From contig JAJZYR010000010.1 of the NCBI GenBank assembly GCA_021797995.1, forward strand, positions 1 to 32,782: a DNA stretch of 32,782 nucleotides, given 5' to 3'. Under the pieces are notes generated by a model. It searched no databases, was not told the DNA's origin, and was given only the letters and a program-made list of their open reading frames with translations. Shown here one piece after another: positions 1,999 through 32,731 of the stretch (its first letter is position 1; every line of letters begins with the position of its first letter). The DNA is from Microcaldota archaeon. GTDB lineage: Archaea > Micrarchaeota > Micrarchaeia > Micrarchaeales > CABMGC01. The position numbers and the translations under genes are program-made.

Positions 1999-3450
1999 AT
2001 GCCGGCAGGCCCACCTAACATAATCTTTGTGATGCTTGACACCGCAAGGGCGGACTACTTCGGGAGTTATGGGGGGAGGCTGCGCCTTGATAATATAGAT
2101 GGCATCTGGAAGAACGGTGTTGTGTACGAGAATGCCATTTCCCCCGGCACTTATACGCTGCCTTCGCATGTCTCGCTCTTTTTGGGCAAGCAGGTTTCCC
2201 GGATCCCGGGGCTGATGGAGGACAAGATGAAGCATTATGATCGCAACACGGACCCGTTTCTTTTAAGGTCACGGGTGATAAAGCCCGGAAGCATGACGCT
2301 TGCGAAAAGGCTTTCTTACCTTGGGTATGGCACGGCCATCTTTTCCAACAACCCGCTGGTCAGCGAGTATACAGGCATTGCCGAAGGCTTCTCATACCGC
2401 TCTTATACCGATAGCATCGCGATTGCATCGGCGAACAAGATGAATAGGATTGTGATAAGGGGCCCGCTCAGCCTTGTAGGAAACGGGGCTCTCAGGAAAG
2501 GGCTTGTGAACCTTGCCTATCTGGTCACAAGGGCAATGCCTGCGGGCACTCTCGACGCAGTCTATCTCGGCCTGAGGGAAAGGCTCAATAGGATATATGC
2601 AGATGAGGCCAGATACAATGACATAGACCAGGGGGCGCGGGATACAAACAGGAGGGTGGAGGCATACTGCAACGATGCAAGCGGCAGGCGCAACTTCATG
2701 TTCATAAATTACATGGAGGCGCACGAAGGATATCCGACAAGCGCAGTCACTGATACGCGCGTAGAGCAGGACAAATGGCTTTACATGAGCGGCATTGCTG
2801 ACGCTTCCGGGGTGCTGGACATCATAAAGGAGGCACGCGACAGGAGGCTGCTGTACCTTGACAGGCAGATTGGCAGGCTTATGTCTATCCTGAAATCCTG
2901 CGGTATGCTTGACAATGCAGTGCTGATCTTCGGAGGAGACCACGGGCAGGGCTTCATGGAACACGGGCAGATGTACCATGGCGTGTTGCCGTACAATGAG
3001 ATAGTGCACGTGCCCCTCGTCTGCACAAGATTCGTAAATGGCCATCAGGTCAGGGCTGGGGAGCGCGTGGCCAGGCCGGTAAGCCTTACCGCACTACACG
3101 ACGCTGTCCTTGACATAGGCTATGGAGCGTATGATGCCATAGACGGAAATCTTAAGGGAGACAGGTTTGTCTTCTCCGAGCATACAGGGATAACGGAGGT
3201 ATGGGATACGCACCTTCTGAGACTTATAAGGGGCAGATCCAGATATGCGGATGCAATATACAGGGCGAAGCTGAGGCATAATGCCTTTGCGACCGCCGTA
3301 TACTGCGGACGCTATAAGCTCATACATTACAAGGACAGGAAGAAAACAGATGAGCTCTACAATATACACGAGGACGAAAGGGAACTTGAAAATCTTATCT
3401 TCAAGGAGAGGGATGTAGCCCGCAGGCTTCTTGGCTCGATATCCGGGTAG
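1999..3450 (+). CDS. Sulfatase/alkaline phosphatase superfamily hydrolase or transferase
   Basis: A 483-aa protein. Its N-terminus NIIFVMLDTARADYFGSYGG carries the metal-binding Asp (about D14). ISPGTYTLPSHVSLFLGK is the nucleophile loop and GGDHGQGFMEHG (about residues 311-322) is the second metal site. In true sulfatases the nucleophile is a Cys or Ser converted to formylglycine in C/S-x-P-x-R. Here the equivalent position is Thr53 in TLPSH, so formylglycine chemistry is unlikely. A phosphotransferase or phosphodiesterase role, such as head-group or glycan modification, is equally possible. No signal peptide is seen. The ATG at 1999 is chosen because a TATA box lies about 26 nt upstream. 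It stands alone between the exporter and rpoK. Confidence 0.85.
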   Translation: MPAGPPNIIFVMLDTARADYFGSYGGRLRLDNIDGIWKNGVVYENAISPGTYTLPSHVSLFLGKQVSRIPGLMEDKMKHYDRNTDPFLLRSRVIKPGSMTLAKRLSYLGYGTAIFSNNPLVSEYTGIAEGFSYRSYTDSIAIASANKMNRIVIRGPLSLVGNGALRKGLVNLAYLVTRAMPAGTLDAVYLGLRERLNRIYADEARYNDIDQGARDTNRRVEAYCNDASGRRNFMFINYMEAHEGYPTSAVTDTRVEQDKWLYMSGIADASGVLDIIKEARDRRLLYLDRQIGRLMSILKSCGMLDNAVLIFGGDHGQGFMEHGQMYHGVLPYNEIVHVPLVCTRFVNGHQVRAGERVARPVSLTALHDAVLDIGYGAYDAIDGNLKGDRFVFSEHTGITEVWDTHLLRLIRGRSRYADAIYRAKLRHNAFATAVYCGRYKLIHYKDRKKTDELYNIHEDERELENLIFKERDVARRLLGSISG

Positions 3451-3552
3451 TGCTGGTCAATGGCTTCGGCACGGGCTGAAACGCTGCTGGCATGGCGATG
3501 GAAAAGCAGGCCGGTATGCAGTGAAGCATAGCAAGCGTTTGGGGCACAGGAA

Positions 3553-3594
3553 CCTTTAAAATGTTATGCGTACACAATAGTACTGTTTGTACGC
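3553..3594 (+). promoter_or_regulatory. Candidate rpoK promoter with operator-like inverted repeat
   Basis: CTTTAAAAT (3553-3561) resembles a TATA box. Directly downstream, GCGTACA (3568-3574) pairs with TGTACGC (3588-3594), a perfect 7-bp inverted repeat around a 13-nt centre containing AGTACT. The repeat spans the expected transcription start near 3580, as a repressor operator would. A second AT-rich stretch (CATATATC, about 3610-3617) lies too close to the ATG to be its promoter. Confidence 0.4.
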
Positions 3595-3627
3595 CCTTAC
3601 GGCTAGGGGCATATATCTCGTGTTTTT

Positions 3628-3795
3628 ATGGAGTATACAAGATTTGAGAAGGCGAGGATTATAGGAGCAAGGGCCTTGCAGCTGGCATACGGTGCGCCGC
3701 CGCTGATAAAGGTACCGCAGGGGATGTCTGACCCTCTCGCTCTGGCCGAGGCGGAATTCGCCGAAGATGCAATCCCGATAGTCGTAATAAGGTAG
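3628..3795 (+). CDS. rpoK: DNA-directed RNA polymerase subunit Rpo6 (RpoK/omega homologue)
   Basis: A 55-aa protein too short for the ORF track. It reads MEYTRFEKARIIGARALQLA, then YGAPPLIKVP, and ends EDAIPIVVIR. This is the conserved core of archaeal subunit K: the TRFEKARIIGARALQL helix, the GAPP(L/I) turn, and a C-terminal acidic helix ending IPI-V-VIR. The subunit corresponds to bacterial omega and eukaryotic RPB6 and stabilises the largest-subunit assembly of RNA polymerase. Length is normal for the archaeal family. It lies 18 nt upstream of the geranylgeranyl reductase gene, so the two are probably co-transcribed. Confidence 0.93.
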   Translation: MEYTRFEKARIIGARALQLAYGAPPLIKVPQGMSDPLALAEAEFAEDAIPIVVIR

Positions 3796-3813
3796 GCAAA
3801 GCTAGGTTTTATC

Positions 3814-5247
3814 TTGGAAGATCCAGATATAATTGTTGCAGGGGCAGGCATGGCTGGTTCGCTTGCTGCCGCCGCCGCAGCGAGAGGTGGGGCAGCGGTG
3901 CTGCTTCTTGATAGGAACGATAATACAGTAGTCGGAAAGAAGACTAACTGGGGCTGGGTCTGCGGCGACGCGGTTGCAAAGAGCCACACAGACTTCATCG
4001 AGAAGGAGCTTGGGATTAAACTTGGCGAGCCGGTGCTCGACGTCAAGGTTGACGGGGTGCAGGTCCTGAGCCCTGACATGCAGAACAAGTTCCCGTTCGA
4101 GGGCGAGGGATACAGCCTGAACAGGCCAAAAGCAGCACAGTACTTTGCTGGGCTTGCGGTAAAGAACGGAGCAGAATACAGGCCGCATTACGAGGTTGGC
4201 GGGCCTCTTCTTGAGGGAAACCGTGTCGTCGGGATATACGGGAGGGACGAGAAAGGAGGGCAGGTTGAGATAAAGGCCAAGATAGTCATCGATACGCTCG
4301 GAATTGCGAGCACCTTGAGAAGGAAGCTGCCGCCAAATGATTATATAGAGAGCACGGTCAGCACTGACGATATCGAGTCTACGGGGAGATACATCGCTGG
4401 TTTCGAGCAGGACGGCGAGGACCCTAACTACTATGACCCAAAGAACGCGCTTATACACTTGAACCAGGTGCTTGCCCCAGGAGGCTACGGATGGGTCTTC
4501 CCGAAGAGCGGGAAAAGGGTAAACATAGGCCTGGGAGTGGAGAAGAAGAGCCTGGAGGTAAGGAATTCGAAGCTCGGGAAGAAGGATACGCTCCACTCGC
4601 TGATCGACGATTATGTAAAGTGGAATCATGTCATAAAGGGCATAAGGATCGATACGGAGGACGGGAACGGAAAGGGCTACTGGTCCGTTACTGTGAGGAG
4701 GCAGTTCGATAGCCTGGTCTATCCAGGATACATGGGGGCCGGGGACAGCATGGCGATGCCAAATCCGATAAGCGCCGGCGGGATAGGCCCGGCGATGGTT
4801 GCCGGAGTGCTCGCCGGGGAGGTCGCGGCTGAGGCAATTGCCGCAAATGACGCAAGCATGGAGTTCCTTTGGAAATACAATGTAAGGTACAACGACCTTT
4901 ACGGTAACAAGACTGCAGCGCTTGAGGCATTCAGGATATACCTCCAGTCGTTAAACAATGACCTGATAAACTACGGGATGAGCCACTTCCTCACGAAACA
5001 GGAGGCCGAGGAAATAAGCTATGGGAGGATTCCGAAGATAACGATTGCAGGGACATTCAACAAGGTGCTCAGCGGCATCTCGAACATAAACGCCTTCAGG
5101 AATCTCATCTTTACAGTCAACAAGATGAAAAGGATGAACGAGCTCTACGGAAAGTATCCGGGGATGAGCGGTTTTCTTGACTGGAAGAAGGCCGTCAATG
5201 CGGAGATGCGGGAGGTAAAAGAGAGATTTCCCCCTAATCCTATCTGA
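3814..5247 (+). CDS. Geranylgeranyl reductase family protein (archaeal lipid saturation)
   Basis: A 477-aa FAD-dependent oxidoreductase. The N-terminal dinucleotide-binding motif is GAGMAG (residues 10-15). It is followed by NWGWVCGDAV, the substrate-cavity PGGYGWVFPK, and the second FAD motif GAGDSMAMPNPISAGGIGPA. These are the hallmarks of archaeal digeranylgeranylglycerophospholipid reductase, which saturates the isoprenoid chains of membrane lipids at the membrane surface. The start is TTG 3814, since no other start places the FAD motif correctly. It follows rpoK by 18 nt. The next gene is convergent, with a 3-nt gap between the stops. Confidence 0.92.
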   Translation: MEDPDIIVAGAGMAGSLAAAAAARGGAAVLLLDRNDNTVVGKKTNWGWVCGDAVAKSHTDFIEKELGIKLGEPVLDVKVDGVQVLSPDMQNKFPFEGEGYSLNRPKAAQYFAGLAVKNGAEYRPHYEVGGPLLEGNRVVGIYGRDEKGGQVEIKAKIVIDTLGIASTLRRKLPPNDYIESTVSTDDIESTGRYIAGFEQDGEDPNYYDPKNALIHLNQVLAPGGYGWVFPKSGKRVNIGLGVEKKSLEVRNSKLGKKDTLHSLIDDYVKWNHVIKGIRIDTEDGNGKGYWSVTVRRQFDSLVYPGYMGAGDSMAMPNPISAGGIGPAMVAGVLAGEVAAEAIAANDASMEFLWKYNVRYNDLYGNKTAALEAFRIYLQSLNNDLINYGMSHFLTKQEAEEISYGRIPKITIAGTFNKVLSGISNINAFRNLIFTVNKMKRMNELYGKYPGMSGFLDWKKAVNAEMREVKERFPPNPI

Positions 5248-28358: not shown

Positions 28359-28988
28359 CTACAGACTCTTCCTGATTATCTCAGCATACTTTCTCCTGAG
28401 CTTCGAGAAGCTCGCCTGGTTGAGGCTTAGGTACTTCAGGTCCTCCATTCTGAATTCGTCTAGGATTTTTCCGAGCAACCTGACATGGCCGACGAAGCCA
28501 TGCTCCGCTGCAATCCCCCTCAGCTTTCCCACGTCGGCACCGGAATAGAAGAGAAGTCCCAGAATGTCTATCGCATCCTTGGTACCCTTCTGGCTTGCAA
28601 GCCTGTCTGCTGCTGCGCCGAGCTTGAGGAGAAGGAGCGCCTCTGCTGTGGGGACCTTGAATCCCTCTATGTGCGTGGAGTACCTCCCGATCAGGTCCTT
28701 TGCAGGAAGCGACAGTTTCGAGTAACCTGGCAGGTAGATGTCGATGTCGAAGAGGTCGAGTTTTGCCTCATACTTGTGCAGGCGTTCGTTCTTCTCGAGC
28801 CTATAGGTGCCTTCAAGCTGCCTGAGCACGGGATAGTCCACCACCACGTCTATGTCCTTCGACTTCTGGAGCTTTGTGTACAGATAGACGGCCCACCCTC
28901 CGATGAGAGTGAACTTGAACTCCTTGTTGAGCTCCTGAAGCTTCTCCCAACTTGCACGAGTGATCTCGCTGTTCCAGAACTCGGTCAT
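28359..28988 (-). CDS. Nucleotidyltransferase, AbiEii-like toxin candidate
   Basis: 209 aa. LIGGWAVYLYTKLQKSKDIDVVV carries the GG loop and D-x-D of the DNA polymerase beta-type nucleotidyltransferase fold. KLDLFDIDIYLPG supplies the third acidic residue. TAEALLLLKLGAAADR resembles the K-x-A/D helix of AbiEii. In AbiE (type IV toxin-antitoxin) systems such an enzyme transfers nucleotides to tRNA and stops growth. Its start overlaps the stop of the upstream winged-helix gene by 4 nt (ATGA), as expected of a coupled antitoxin-toxin pair. Assignment rests on domain order, since AbiEii is a broad group. Confidence 0.78.
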   Translation of the reverse strand: MTEFWNSEITRASWEKLQELNKEFKFTLIGGWAVYLYTKLQKSKDIDVVVDYPVLRQLEGTYRLEKNERLHKYEAKLDLFDIDIYLPGYSKLSLPAKDLIGRYSTHIEGFKVPTAEALLLLKLGAAADRLASQKGTKDAIDILGLLFYSGADVGKLRGIAAEHGFVGHVRLLGKILDEFRMEDLKYLSLNQASFSKLRRKYAEIIRKSL

Positions 28989-29590
28989 ATTCCAAGCCTC
29001 TTCTCCAGGGCCGCGACAAAGTCCCTAGCATACCACTCCTTGAGGTTCCACAGGTCCACGAACATCTGAGCCGTACAGACCGAGGAGTGCTTTAGTTTGC
29101 CGTTCGCAATCTCTGCGTCGAGCCTCTCATCCGGTTTGAGCACGACCAAGTTTGGAGGACCGGCCTTTTGCCTGAACCTCCTTATTATCTCTTTTGTCCC
29201 TTCTGCTGTGGCATATGCATAGACCTCGCTGTAGTCTGCAGGCGCGTCCTTGAACATTAGCTTGTATGCAGTATAGCAGGTGAAGGCCACCTCATCAGGC
29301 ATGTTGCGCTCTATCTCCCTAACAGGCTCTTCCGCTCTTGTCCGGTAGAGCACGTCATTAGATACCTTCCTCTTTGTGGCCCAGTAGAGCAGCAGGCGGG
29401 ACAGCGATATCACCTCGAAGTGGCGCCGGCTCACGCTTACTGCATTTACCGCTTCGAGATTCGAGACTGCCCCGTTAATGGTGCTTAATGACAGGCCAAG
29501 CAGTCCGGATAACTCCAGCTGCGTAAACTTCCTCTTCCCGTCTATATACGCGCATCCGATCTCCCTGTATACGATCTCCTGCTTCTTCAT
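28985..29590 (-). CDS. Winged-helix regulator, AbiEi-like antitoxin candidate
   Basis: 201 aa. The N-terminal half is a winged helix (FTQLELSGLLGLSLSTINGAVSNLEAVNAV, then a wing with VSVSRRHFEVIS). The C-terminal half (FTCYTAYKLMFKDAP...VYAYATAEG...LVVLKPDER) matches the general architecture of AbiEi-type and related archaeal regulators, where the second domain contacts the toxin. It is the first gene of the pair, with the nucleotidyltransferase overlapping by 4 nt. AbiEi proteins repress their own operon by binding inverted repeats; candidate repeats lie just upstream at 29593-29643. Confidence 0.78.
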   Translation of the reverse strand: MKKQEIVYREIGCAYIDGKRKFTQLELSGLLGLSLSTINGAVSNLEAVNAVSVSRRHFEVISLSRLLLYWATKRKVSNDVLYRTRAEEPVREIERNMPDEVAFTCYTAYKLMFKDAPADYSEVYAYATAEGTKEIIRRFRQKAGPPNLVVLKPDERLDAEIANGKLKHSSVCTAQMFVDLWNLKEWYARDFVAALEKRLGI

Positions 29591-31579: not shown

Positions 31580-31617
31580 ATGGCTACATAATTAGATAAT
31601 TATATAGATGTAGCCAT
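31580..31617. repeat. Palindromic operator unit 1 upstream of fic
   Basis: ATGGCTACA (31580-31588) and its exact complement TGTAGCCAT (31609-31617) surround a 20-nt AT-rich centre. It is the first of two tandem 38-bp units with the same arm and spacer lengths. Confidence 0.75.
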
Positions 31618-31618
31618 T

Positions 31619-31656
31619 ATGTCTACAATATTTAAATATGTATATAATGTAGACAT
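31619..31656. repeat. Palindromic operator unit 2 covering fic promoter
   Basis: ATGTCTACA (31619-31627) and TGTAGACAT (31648-31656) surround a 20-nt centre containing TTTAAATA, about 26 nt upstream of the fic ATG. The arms extend one more base pair (T/A). The unit begins one nucleotide after unit 1 and its half-site differs from that of unit 1 at one position (ATGGCTACA versus ATGTCTACA). Binding here would block TBP and the start site. Confidence 0.75.
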
Positions 31657-31659
31657 ATC

Positions 31660-32568
31660 ATGTCATTTATAGAAAAACAAAGGCATGGCAAGCATTCATA
31701 CTTCTATTTAGTCAAAAATGTAAGGATTGCTCCAAATAAGGTAAAAAAGCTCAGAGTATGGCTTGGTAGAGAAATCCCTAAGCATAGCGAACTGCAGAAA
31801 TATTTTGTAGAGTTAGAGAAAAGGACAATGGAGCAGTATGAAACTAAGTGGTTGCCAAAAGAACTTGTTGAAAAAGTTGACGACCTAAGTGCCTCTATAA
31901 CTGTATTTCATAAAACACCCATAAACGTATTGCCCAAGGACTTTCTAGTTCGATATACCTATAACACAAACGCAATAGAGGGTAACCATTTGACATTAAG
32001 ACAGACAGCTCTGGTACTTAGTGATAGAATAGCCCCAGAAGGCACAAGGGCAGATGATGTTATCGAAGCTCTTAACGCTTTAGACGCATGGAATTTTATC
32101 AAATCTTACAAAAATAGGATAAACAAGAAATATATCTGCAAAATACAATACGAATTGACAAAAAATACTTCATGCAGAATAAAGGGCGATTACAGAGATA
32201 GTGAAGTAAGAATCGCAGGCTCTGAACATATTCCACCAAAGCCAACTGATGTTCCAAAATTACTTGAAAGTCTGTTTGCAAAATTTTATAAAGAAAAAAA
32301 GACACTGCATCCCATAGAACTTGCGTCTTCGCTACATAATAAATTTGTAAATATACATCCATTTACAGATGGCAATGGAAGAACTGCCAGACTTCTAATA
32401 AACTGGATACTACTTAGAAATAAATTCCCACCAATTATAATTGAAGTTTCCAACAAGGAGCAGTACTACAAAGCAATAGAAGATGCCGATAAAGGAGACC
32501 AAAAGCCGTTTGCTGTTTTCTTAGCTAACCAATTACTCTCACAGTATACTCTACCTTTACCTACATAG
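31660..32568 (+). CDS. Fic domain protein (AMP transferase, self-inhibited class)
   Basis: 302 aa. HPFTDGNGRTARLLIN is the complete Fic motif H-P-F-x-D/E-G-N-G-R, with the catalytic His and phosphate-binding residues. TYNTNAIEGN upstream is the inhibitory-helix motif (S/T-x-x-x-E-G/N) of self-inhibited Fic enzymes, placed N-terminal to the core. The N-terminal ~90 residues (HGKHSYFYLVKNVRI, VKKLRVWLG) form a beta-rich region as in archaeal Fic proteins. It would transfer AMP to a protein Ser, Thr or Tyr. The gene is very AT-rich. A leaderless start at ATG 31660 is supported by the TATA in operator unit 2. No separate antitoxin gene is needed for this class. Confidence 0.92.
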   Translation: MSFIEKQRHGKHSYFYLVKNVRIAPNKVKKLRVWLGREIPKHSELQKYFVELEKRTMEQYETKWLPKELVEKVDDLSASITVFHKTPINVLPKDFLVRYTYNTNAIEGNHLTLRQTALVLSDRIAPEGTRADDVIEALNALDAWNFIKSYKNRINKKYICKIQYELTKNTSCRIKGDYRDSEVRIAGSEHIPPKPTDVPKLLESLFAKFYKEKKTLHPIELASSLHNKFVNIHPFTDGNGRTARLLINWILLRNKFPPIIIEVSNKEQYYKAIEDADKGDQKPFAVFLANQLLSQYTLPLPT

Positions 32569-32605: not shown

Positions 32606-32661
32606 CAGCTCACAAATATGGAATTTATCAGACGACAAGACCTTTAAAAATAAGTTTCAAT

Positions 32662-32731
32662 GGAGGCACAGGGAGTCGAACCCAGACCTTCACCGTGTAA
32701 GGGTGACGTCCTACCGCTAGACGATGCCTCC
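32662..32731 (-). tRNA. tRNA-Val (anticodon UAC)
   Basis: On the minus strand, GGAGGCA pairs with TGCCTCC. D arm is GTCTAGCGGTAGGAC. Anticodon stem TCACC/GGTGA has loop CTTACAC, anticodon TAC. The T arm CTGGGTTCGACTCCCTG has a T-T mismatch and the variable loop is only 4 nt, slightly unusual. No CCA is encoded. It sits at the border of the AT-rich island. Confidence 0.92.

Follow-up and report, generated by a model that had tools for sequence, protein, structure and literature searches.

A conserved tandem array of inverted repeats at the promoter of a class II fic gene in Micrarchaeota, a putative operator for the N-terminal domain of Fic

A class II fic gene in a 32,782 nt stretch of Microcaldota archaeon DNA (termed the window; contig JAJZYR010000010.1 of a Micrarchaeota MAG) is preceded by a 77 bp array of inverted repeats. 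This array is most probably the operator of an autoregulated gene, where the N-terminal domain of Fic would bind and Fic would repress its own promoter. The control of class II Fic enzymes, which make up the majority of the family, is largely unknown (PMC9755527). Here the operator, the gene and a candidate binding domain can be named together, in archaea for which few regulators have been described, and recognition can readily be tested on the tens of natural variants whose half-sites differ.

Sequence and geometry of the array

The array consists of two 38 bp units that are 1 bp apart, each of the form ATGNCYACA-N20-TGTRGNCAT, and it ends 3 bp short of the fic start (Table 1). The half-sites of the window extend to 10 bp, i.e. 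TATGKCTACA, and the TATA box is framed by half-sites. The original prediction of two units with 9 bp arms, 20 bp spacers and a single bp between them proves exact in coordinates and geometry. When the window is scanned with three mismatches allowed, the two units are the sole matches (shuffled sequences give 0.02). A search of the 0.95 Mb genome for the unit pattern, which the original prediction had called for, displays effectively no match outside of the fic array; there is one further match with three mismatches, which is at the level of the reversed-pattern control. Because the TATA centre is approximately 25 bp ahead of the fic ATG, the fic transcript is expected to be leaderless, in which case the array would act as DNA and not as RNA.

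Table 1. Positions in the window of the array, the promoter element, the fic gene and the N-terminal domain
Feature	Position (nt)	Strand	Details
Upstream operator unit (candidate)	31580–31617		Half-sites 31580–31588 and 31609–31617, N20 spacer; ATGGCTACA-N20-TGTAGCCAT
Downstream operator unit (candidate)	31619–31656		Half-sites 31619–31627 and 31648–31656, N20 spacer; ATGTCTACA-N20-TGTAGACAT
1 bp link between units	31618		T
Inner 19 bp palindrome	31609–31627		TGTAGCCATTATGTCTACA; from the two middle half-sites, centre 31618
TATA box	31631–31638	+	TTTAAATA; within the N20 spacer of the downstream unit
fic gene	31660–32568	+	302 aa; PF02661, E = 9.8e-23
N-terminal domain, aa 1–57 (proposed to bind the operator)	31660–31830	+	AlphaFold pLDDT 92; no Pfam family

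Conservation and genomic distribution

Orthologues with enough upstream sequence number 27 including the window, and their protein identities are 55–100%. All four half-sites are kept in every one of the 27, and no orthologue has more than two mismatches over the four. The 1 bp link and the downstream 20 bp spacer are invariant (27/27); 24 orthologues have an upstream spacer of 20 bp and the other three have one of 19 bp. In orthologues with 55–85% protein identity the array is found 3–5 bp ahead of the start codon and the DNA farther upstream is unrelated. The original prediction depended on conservation ahead of related fic genes, and this is borne out throughout the set. The mean top-base frequency is 0.90–0.93 in the half-sites, 0.54 in the upstream spacer and 0.51 in the flank; the downstream spacer reaches 0.81, mainly owing to the TATA box, TTTAAATA, which is nearly invariant. 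Within the half-site, positions 4 and 6 are variable (ATGNCYACA) and the remaining positions are nearly fixed, a pattern as would be expected for protein recognition. Almost all of the named contigs that contain the closest relatives come from Candidatus Micrarchaeota MAGs.

A pattern scan of 301 Micrarchaeota genomes finds the inner palindrome TGTRGNCATNATGNCYACA in 26 and the 38 bp unit in 37; the reversed-pattern control in these genomes gives 0. All 26 inner palindromes are directly upstream of a fic gene of the window's subfamily, and the array is present at the full-length subfamily fic genes from a protein search whose upstream DNA was examined. With spacing left free, N20 is overwhelmingly dominant, and the remainder consists of two N19 units (each the upstream unit of a fic array) and five stray matches with other spacings. 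Within 4.5 kb, no gene is common to more than two of the 26 orthologous loci, thus no conserved linked regulator or antitoxin is found, in agreement with the earlier statement that no neighbouring regulator gene is evident.

Solitary 38 bp units are present in six assemblies (G080, G081, G096, G122, G211 and G285) where no subfamily Fic is found. Given how often other spacings occur, about one of the six may be a chance match. Solitary units may also have been left behind by fic genes that were since lost, or the cognate protein may be encoded in unassembled DNA. The inner 19 bp palindrome was considered as the basic unit and is rejected, as the solitary sites and the paralogues (see below) display the wide-spaced unit. 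The 38 bp unit of the original prediction is favoured because every inner palindrome belongs to a fic array (26/26), because the 38 bp unit is found alone in several genomes, and because one wide-spaced unit is what the majority of paralogues have.

Solitary 38 bp units at position 3756 of L173 and position 1507 of L160 have a TGTAGTG-class palindrome within approximately 60 bp and no obvious gene. Positions 28359–29590 of the window contain a DUF6036 nucleotidyltransferase gene and a partner gene, and similar-looking pairs adjoin solitary units in L173 and L176.

The Fic protein and its N-terminal domain

The Fic protein displays the active motif HPFTDGNGRTAR (aa 233–244) and the class II inhibitory motif TNAIEG (aa 103–108), both of which are conserved in the alignment. 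The canonical active motif together with an N-terminal inhibitory motif places the protein in class II. The chain ends with the Fic core and has no C-terminal HTH; the extra domain sits N-terminally. Searches of the protein with Pfam, NCBIfam and PHROGs recognise nothing beyond the Fic core, and Pfam has no model for the N-terminal domain.

AlphaFold predicts strands at aa positions 2–9, 12–24 and 27–36 and a helix at positions 42–57, followed by a standard Fic core. This beta-beta-beta-alpha order is predicted with high confidence. In a comparison with solved structures, where known DNA-binding folds include AP2 and integrase Arm-binding domains, a Foldseek search with the domain gives no significant match (best PDB match E = 0.36), and a search of PDB sequences with the domain profile gives nothing significant; a DNA-binding fold is thus putative. 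The subfamily and paralogue Fics all start with a basic stretch of 35–40 residues, which is followed by a helix. Among the matches listed from viral contigs and plasmids, it is mainly the Fic core that is matched and not the N-terminal domain. Six viral Fics were examined, and two of these resemble the domain loosely at the N-terminus, without an obvious array.

tRNA genes are found less than 100 bp from several fic genes (at positions 32661–32731 in the window). Two paralogues lie between two copies of tRNA-Asp (192–265 and 1245–1318 in L018, 1330–1404 and 2423–2494 in L019), an arrangement that would result if single fic genes inserted next to tRNAs and duplicated the target.

Repeats at fic paralogues

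Fic paralogues with 30–38% identity display different wide-spaced inverted repeats at the same place around the TATA box. The types are TACCCCTACA-N30-TGTAGGGGTA, TACCCTTACA/TGTAAGGGTA, TAACTCCACA/TGTGGAGTTA and TGTAGTGCCTAC/GTAGGCACTACA. The mean inverted-repeat arm score of 44 paralogue promoters is 9.5, compared with 5.6 in shuffles, and the weighted repeat score has a median of 11.5 in paralogue promoters and of 5.4 in a set of 136 others (p = 1e-19). The commonest paralogue spacing is 30 bp, which is one helical turn above that of the window subfamily. Most paralogues have a single wide-spaced unit, and some (L022, L026 and L167) have a second unit upstream, as read directly from the sequence. 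The window's genome has a second Fic (L156), with a CCCCTACA-type repeat.

The N-terminal domain on other proteins

The profile of the Fic N-terminal domain matches DDE transposases (E = 1e-6 to 3e-5), and a joint alignment was made. The domain is also present on a Doc-like protein and a nucleotidyltransferase (both labels come from reading motifs), on a 579 aa protein of unknown function, and in stand-alone proteins of 51–61 aa.

The domain class MxFIRxKxxGxxxYYxLVESxRExGKVxQxVLxYxG, which is that of Fics with TGTAGTG-type repeats, was tested on proteins other than Fic. TAGTG or CACTA is found within 100 bp upstream in 17 of the 21 non-Fic carriers of this class (10% of random 100-mers) and at least two copies are found in 11 of the 21 (0.7% of random sequences); the effective number of carriers is smaller, approximately 15 groups by eye, because several are related to each other. 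Thirteen of the non-Fic carriers were fetched after the idea was formed, and here ten have the TAGTG core and five have at least two copies. Some of the core copies are direct and not inverted, e.g. two copies of GTAGTGCCTAACTTTTTCC in L228 and of GTAGTGTAGAC in L332. Among the Fics themselves, a partial Mantel comparison of half-site with N-terminal domain, with the Fic core held fixed, gives a partial r of 0.05 and is uninformative, because domain and core co-vary at r = 0.93. Since the Mantel comparison cannot split domain from core, it is the cross-family TAGTG result that carries the argument. The original prediction had put forward a multimeric DNA-binding protein, with Fic or its N-terminal domain as a candidate; this gains support from an operator that travels with fic, from the sharing of the domain with transposases, and from a half-site core that follows the domain on unrelated proteins.

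Stand-alone N-terminal domains with a basic tail, approximately 51–78 aa in length (L228 427–609, L227 398–550, L331 and L325), are candidate free repressors; the one in L228 displays perfect direct repeats, GTAGTGCCTAACTTTTTCC, around its TATA box. The domain is found on a minimal nucleotidyltransferase and on the 579 aa protein (L237 208–660; L233 94–1830; L239 385–1377), and these have the direct repeats TTGTGCCCCCC and GTGGACACAA, respectively.

In genome G286 (L172, positions 2752–5103), a GlgE maltosyltransferase carries the subfamily N-terminal domain, with 63% identity over 52 residues to one orthologue, and its gene is preceded by the window-type operator with extra half-sites. The join may be genuine or may have arisen in assembly. 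A fused fic 5′ end together with its promoter could also bring operator and domain without functional linkage.

On balance, we favour the N-terminal domain being an unrecognised portable archaeal DNA-binding module. Each carrier, whether a toxin (Fic, Doc, nucleotidyltransferase), a transposase, a small stand-alone protein or, in one or more cases, a metabolic enzyme, would thereby have a cognate operator at the TATA box of its own gene. Domain and half-site would diversify together into many distinct pairs, with half-sites that are inverted or direct and spacers that can differ by one helical turn (N20, N30). Were self-repression a general function of this module, the regulation of some archaeal transposases would also be accounted for, and a set of orthogonal repressor-operator pairs could be derived from it.

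Alternative explanations and proposed regulation

Many archaeal promoters are under the control of unlinked factors, and a separate Micrarchaeota transcription factor, not linked to fic, could bind the array and control fic in trans. The solitary units in a few genomes without a subfamily fic gene fit with this. Such a factor is nevertheless unlikely: the array occurs once per genome, at the subfamily fic, and is absent from most genomes without that gene. Each paralogue class has its own repeat, thus a separate co-evolving unlinked factor would be needed for each. In addition, the half-site core follows the N-terminal domain on transposases and stand-alone proteins.

The presence of the domain on DDE transposases, whose upstream regions carry repeats, and the position of some fic genes next to or between tRNA genes would be in keeping with transposase-type sites, where the array would serve as the end or the recombination site of a mobile element to which fic or its promoter belongs. 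However the units are upstream of fic only and not at both ends, their distance from the ATG is fixed and the TATA box is enclosed, and no transposase is linked, which makes this origin quite improbable. That the palindromes form RNA hairpins or DNA cruciforms without a specific protein, as the complementary arms of 9–10 bp might allow, is hardly credible, as the arms keep a specific sequence beyond complementarity, the spacer length is nearly fixed, and the location of the TATA box within the second unit puts the expected start downstream of the array, so that no leader transcript contains it.

In the autoregulation proposed here, the N-terminal domain of Fic, with its three-stranded sheet and helix, would read the 10 bp half-site TATGNCYACA. 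A Fic dimer would hold two such domains and could thus span one 38 bp unit, and the tandem array would be filled by two dimers or by one tetramer. Bound Fic would cover the TATA box and the start site and block TBP/TFB or the polymerase, and Fic would keep its own level low by negative autoregulation. We infer that Fic binds, that it does so as dimers or as a tetramer, and that the effect is repression and not activation; by analogy with CccR, the simplest reading would be that dimers of Fic exert negative autoregulation.

Comparison with known systems

Literature searches, which took in few of the subscription papers, give no report of the Fic N-terminal domain or of the array operator. As a precedent, CccR of Yersinia pseudotuberculosis comes closest; it is a class II Fic and T6SS effector with a C-terminal HTH, whose dimer represses its own promoter via an operator of two 10 bp inverted repeats, AGATAATCAT-N26-ATGATAATCT (PMC9755527). 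CccR and the window Fic have in common the class II type and wide-spaced 10 bp inverted repeats over the gene's own promoter. However, where CccR has the C-terminal HTH of a T6SS effector, a bacterial promoter and one N26 unit, the window Fic has an N-terminal, non-HTH candidate domain that is shared with transposases, an archaeal promoter and a doubled N20 unit. Kinch et al. (2009) listed Fic/HTH fusions and suggested that these regulate fic expression (PMC2686095). Those fusions have HTH or winged helix domains, whereas the window Fic has a predicted beta-beta-beta-alpha domain without a Pfam model.

The phd-doc type II toxin-antitoxin operons also have a Fido-fold toxin and an autoregulated promoter with palindromic operators, but their repressor is encoded by an antitoxin gene of its own within the operon. 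Unlike phd-doc and ficTA, the window fic has no conserved linked gene and its inhibitory helix is in the same chain. The DDE transposases (PF01609) that carry the N-terminal domain, which we take to be of the IS1634/IS4 type, have in common with the Fics both this domain and upstream TAGTG-core repeats, and differ in that the catalytic domain is DDE and not Fic.
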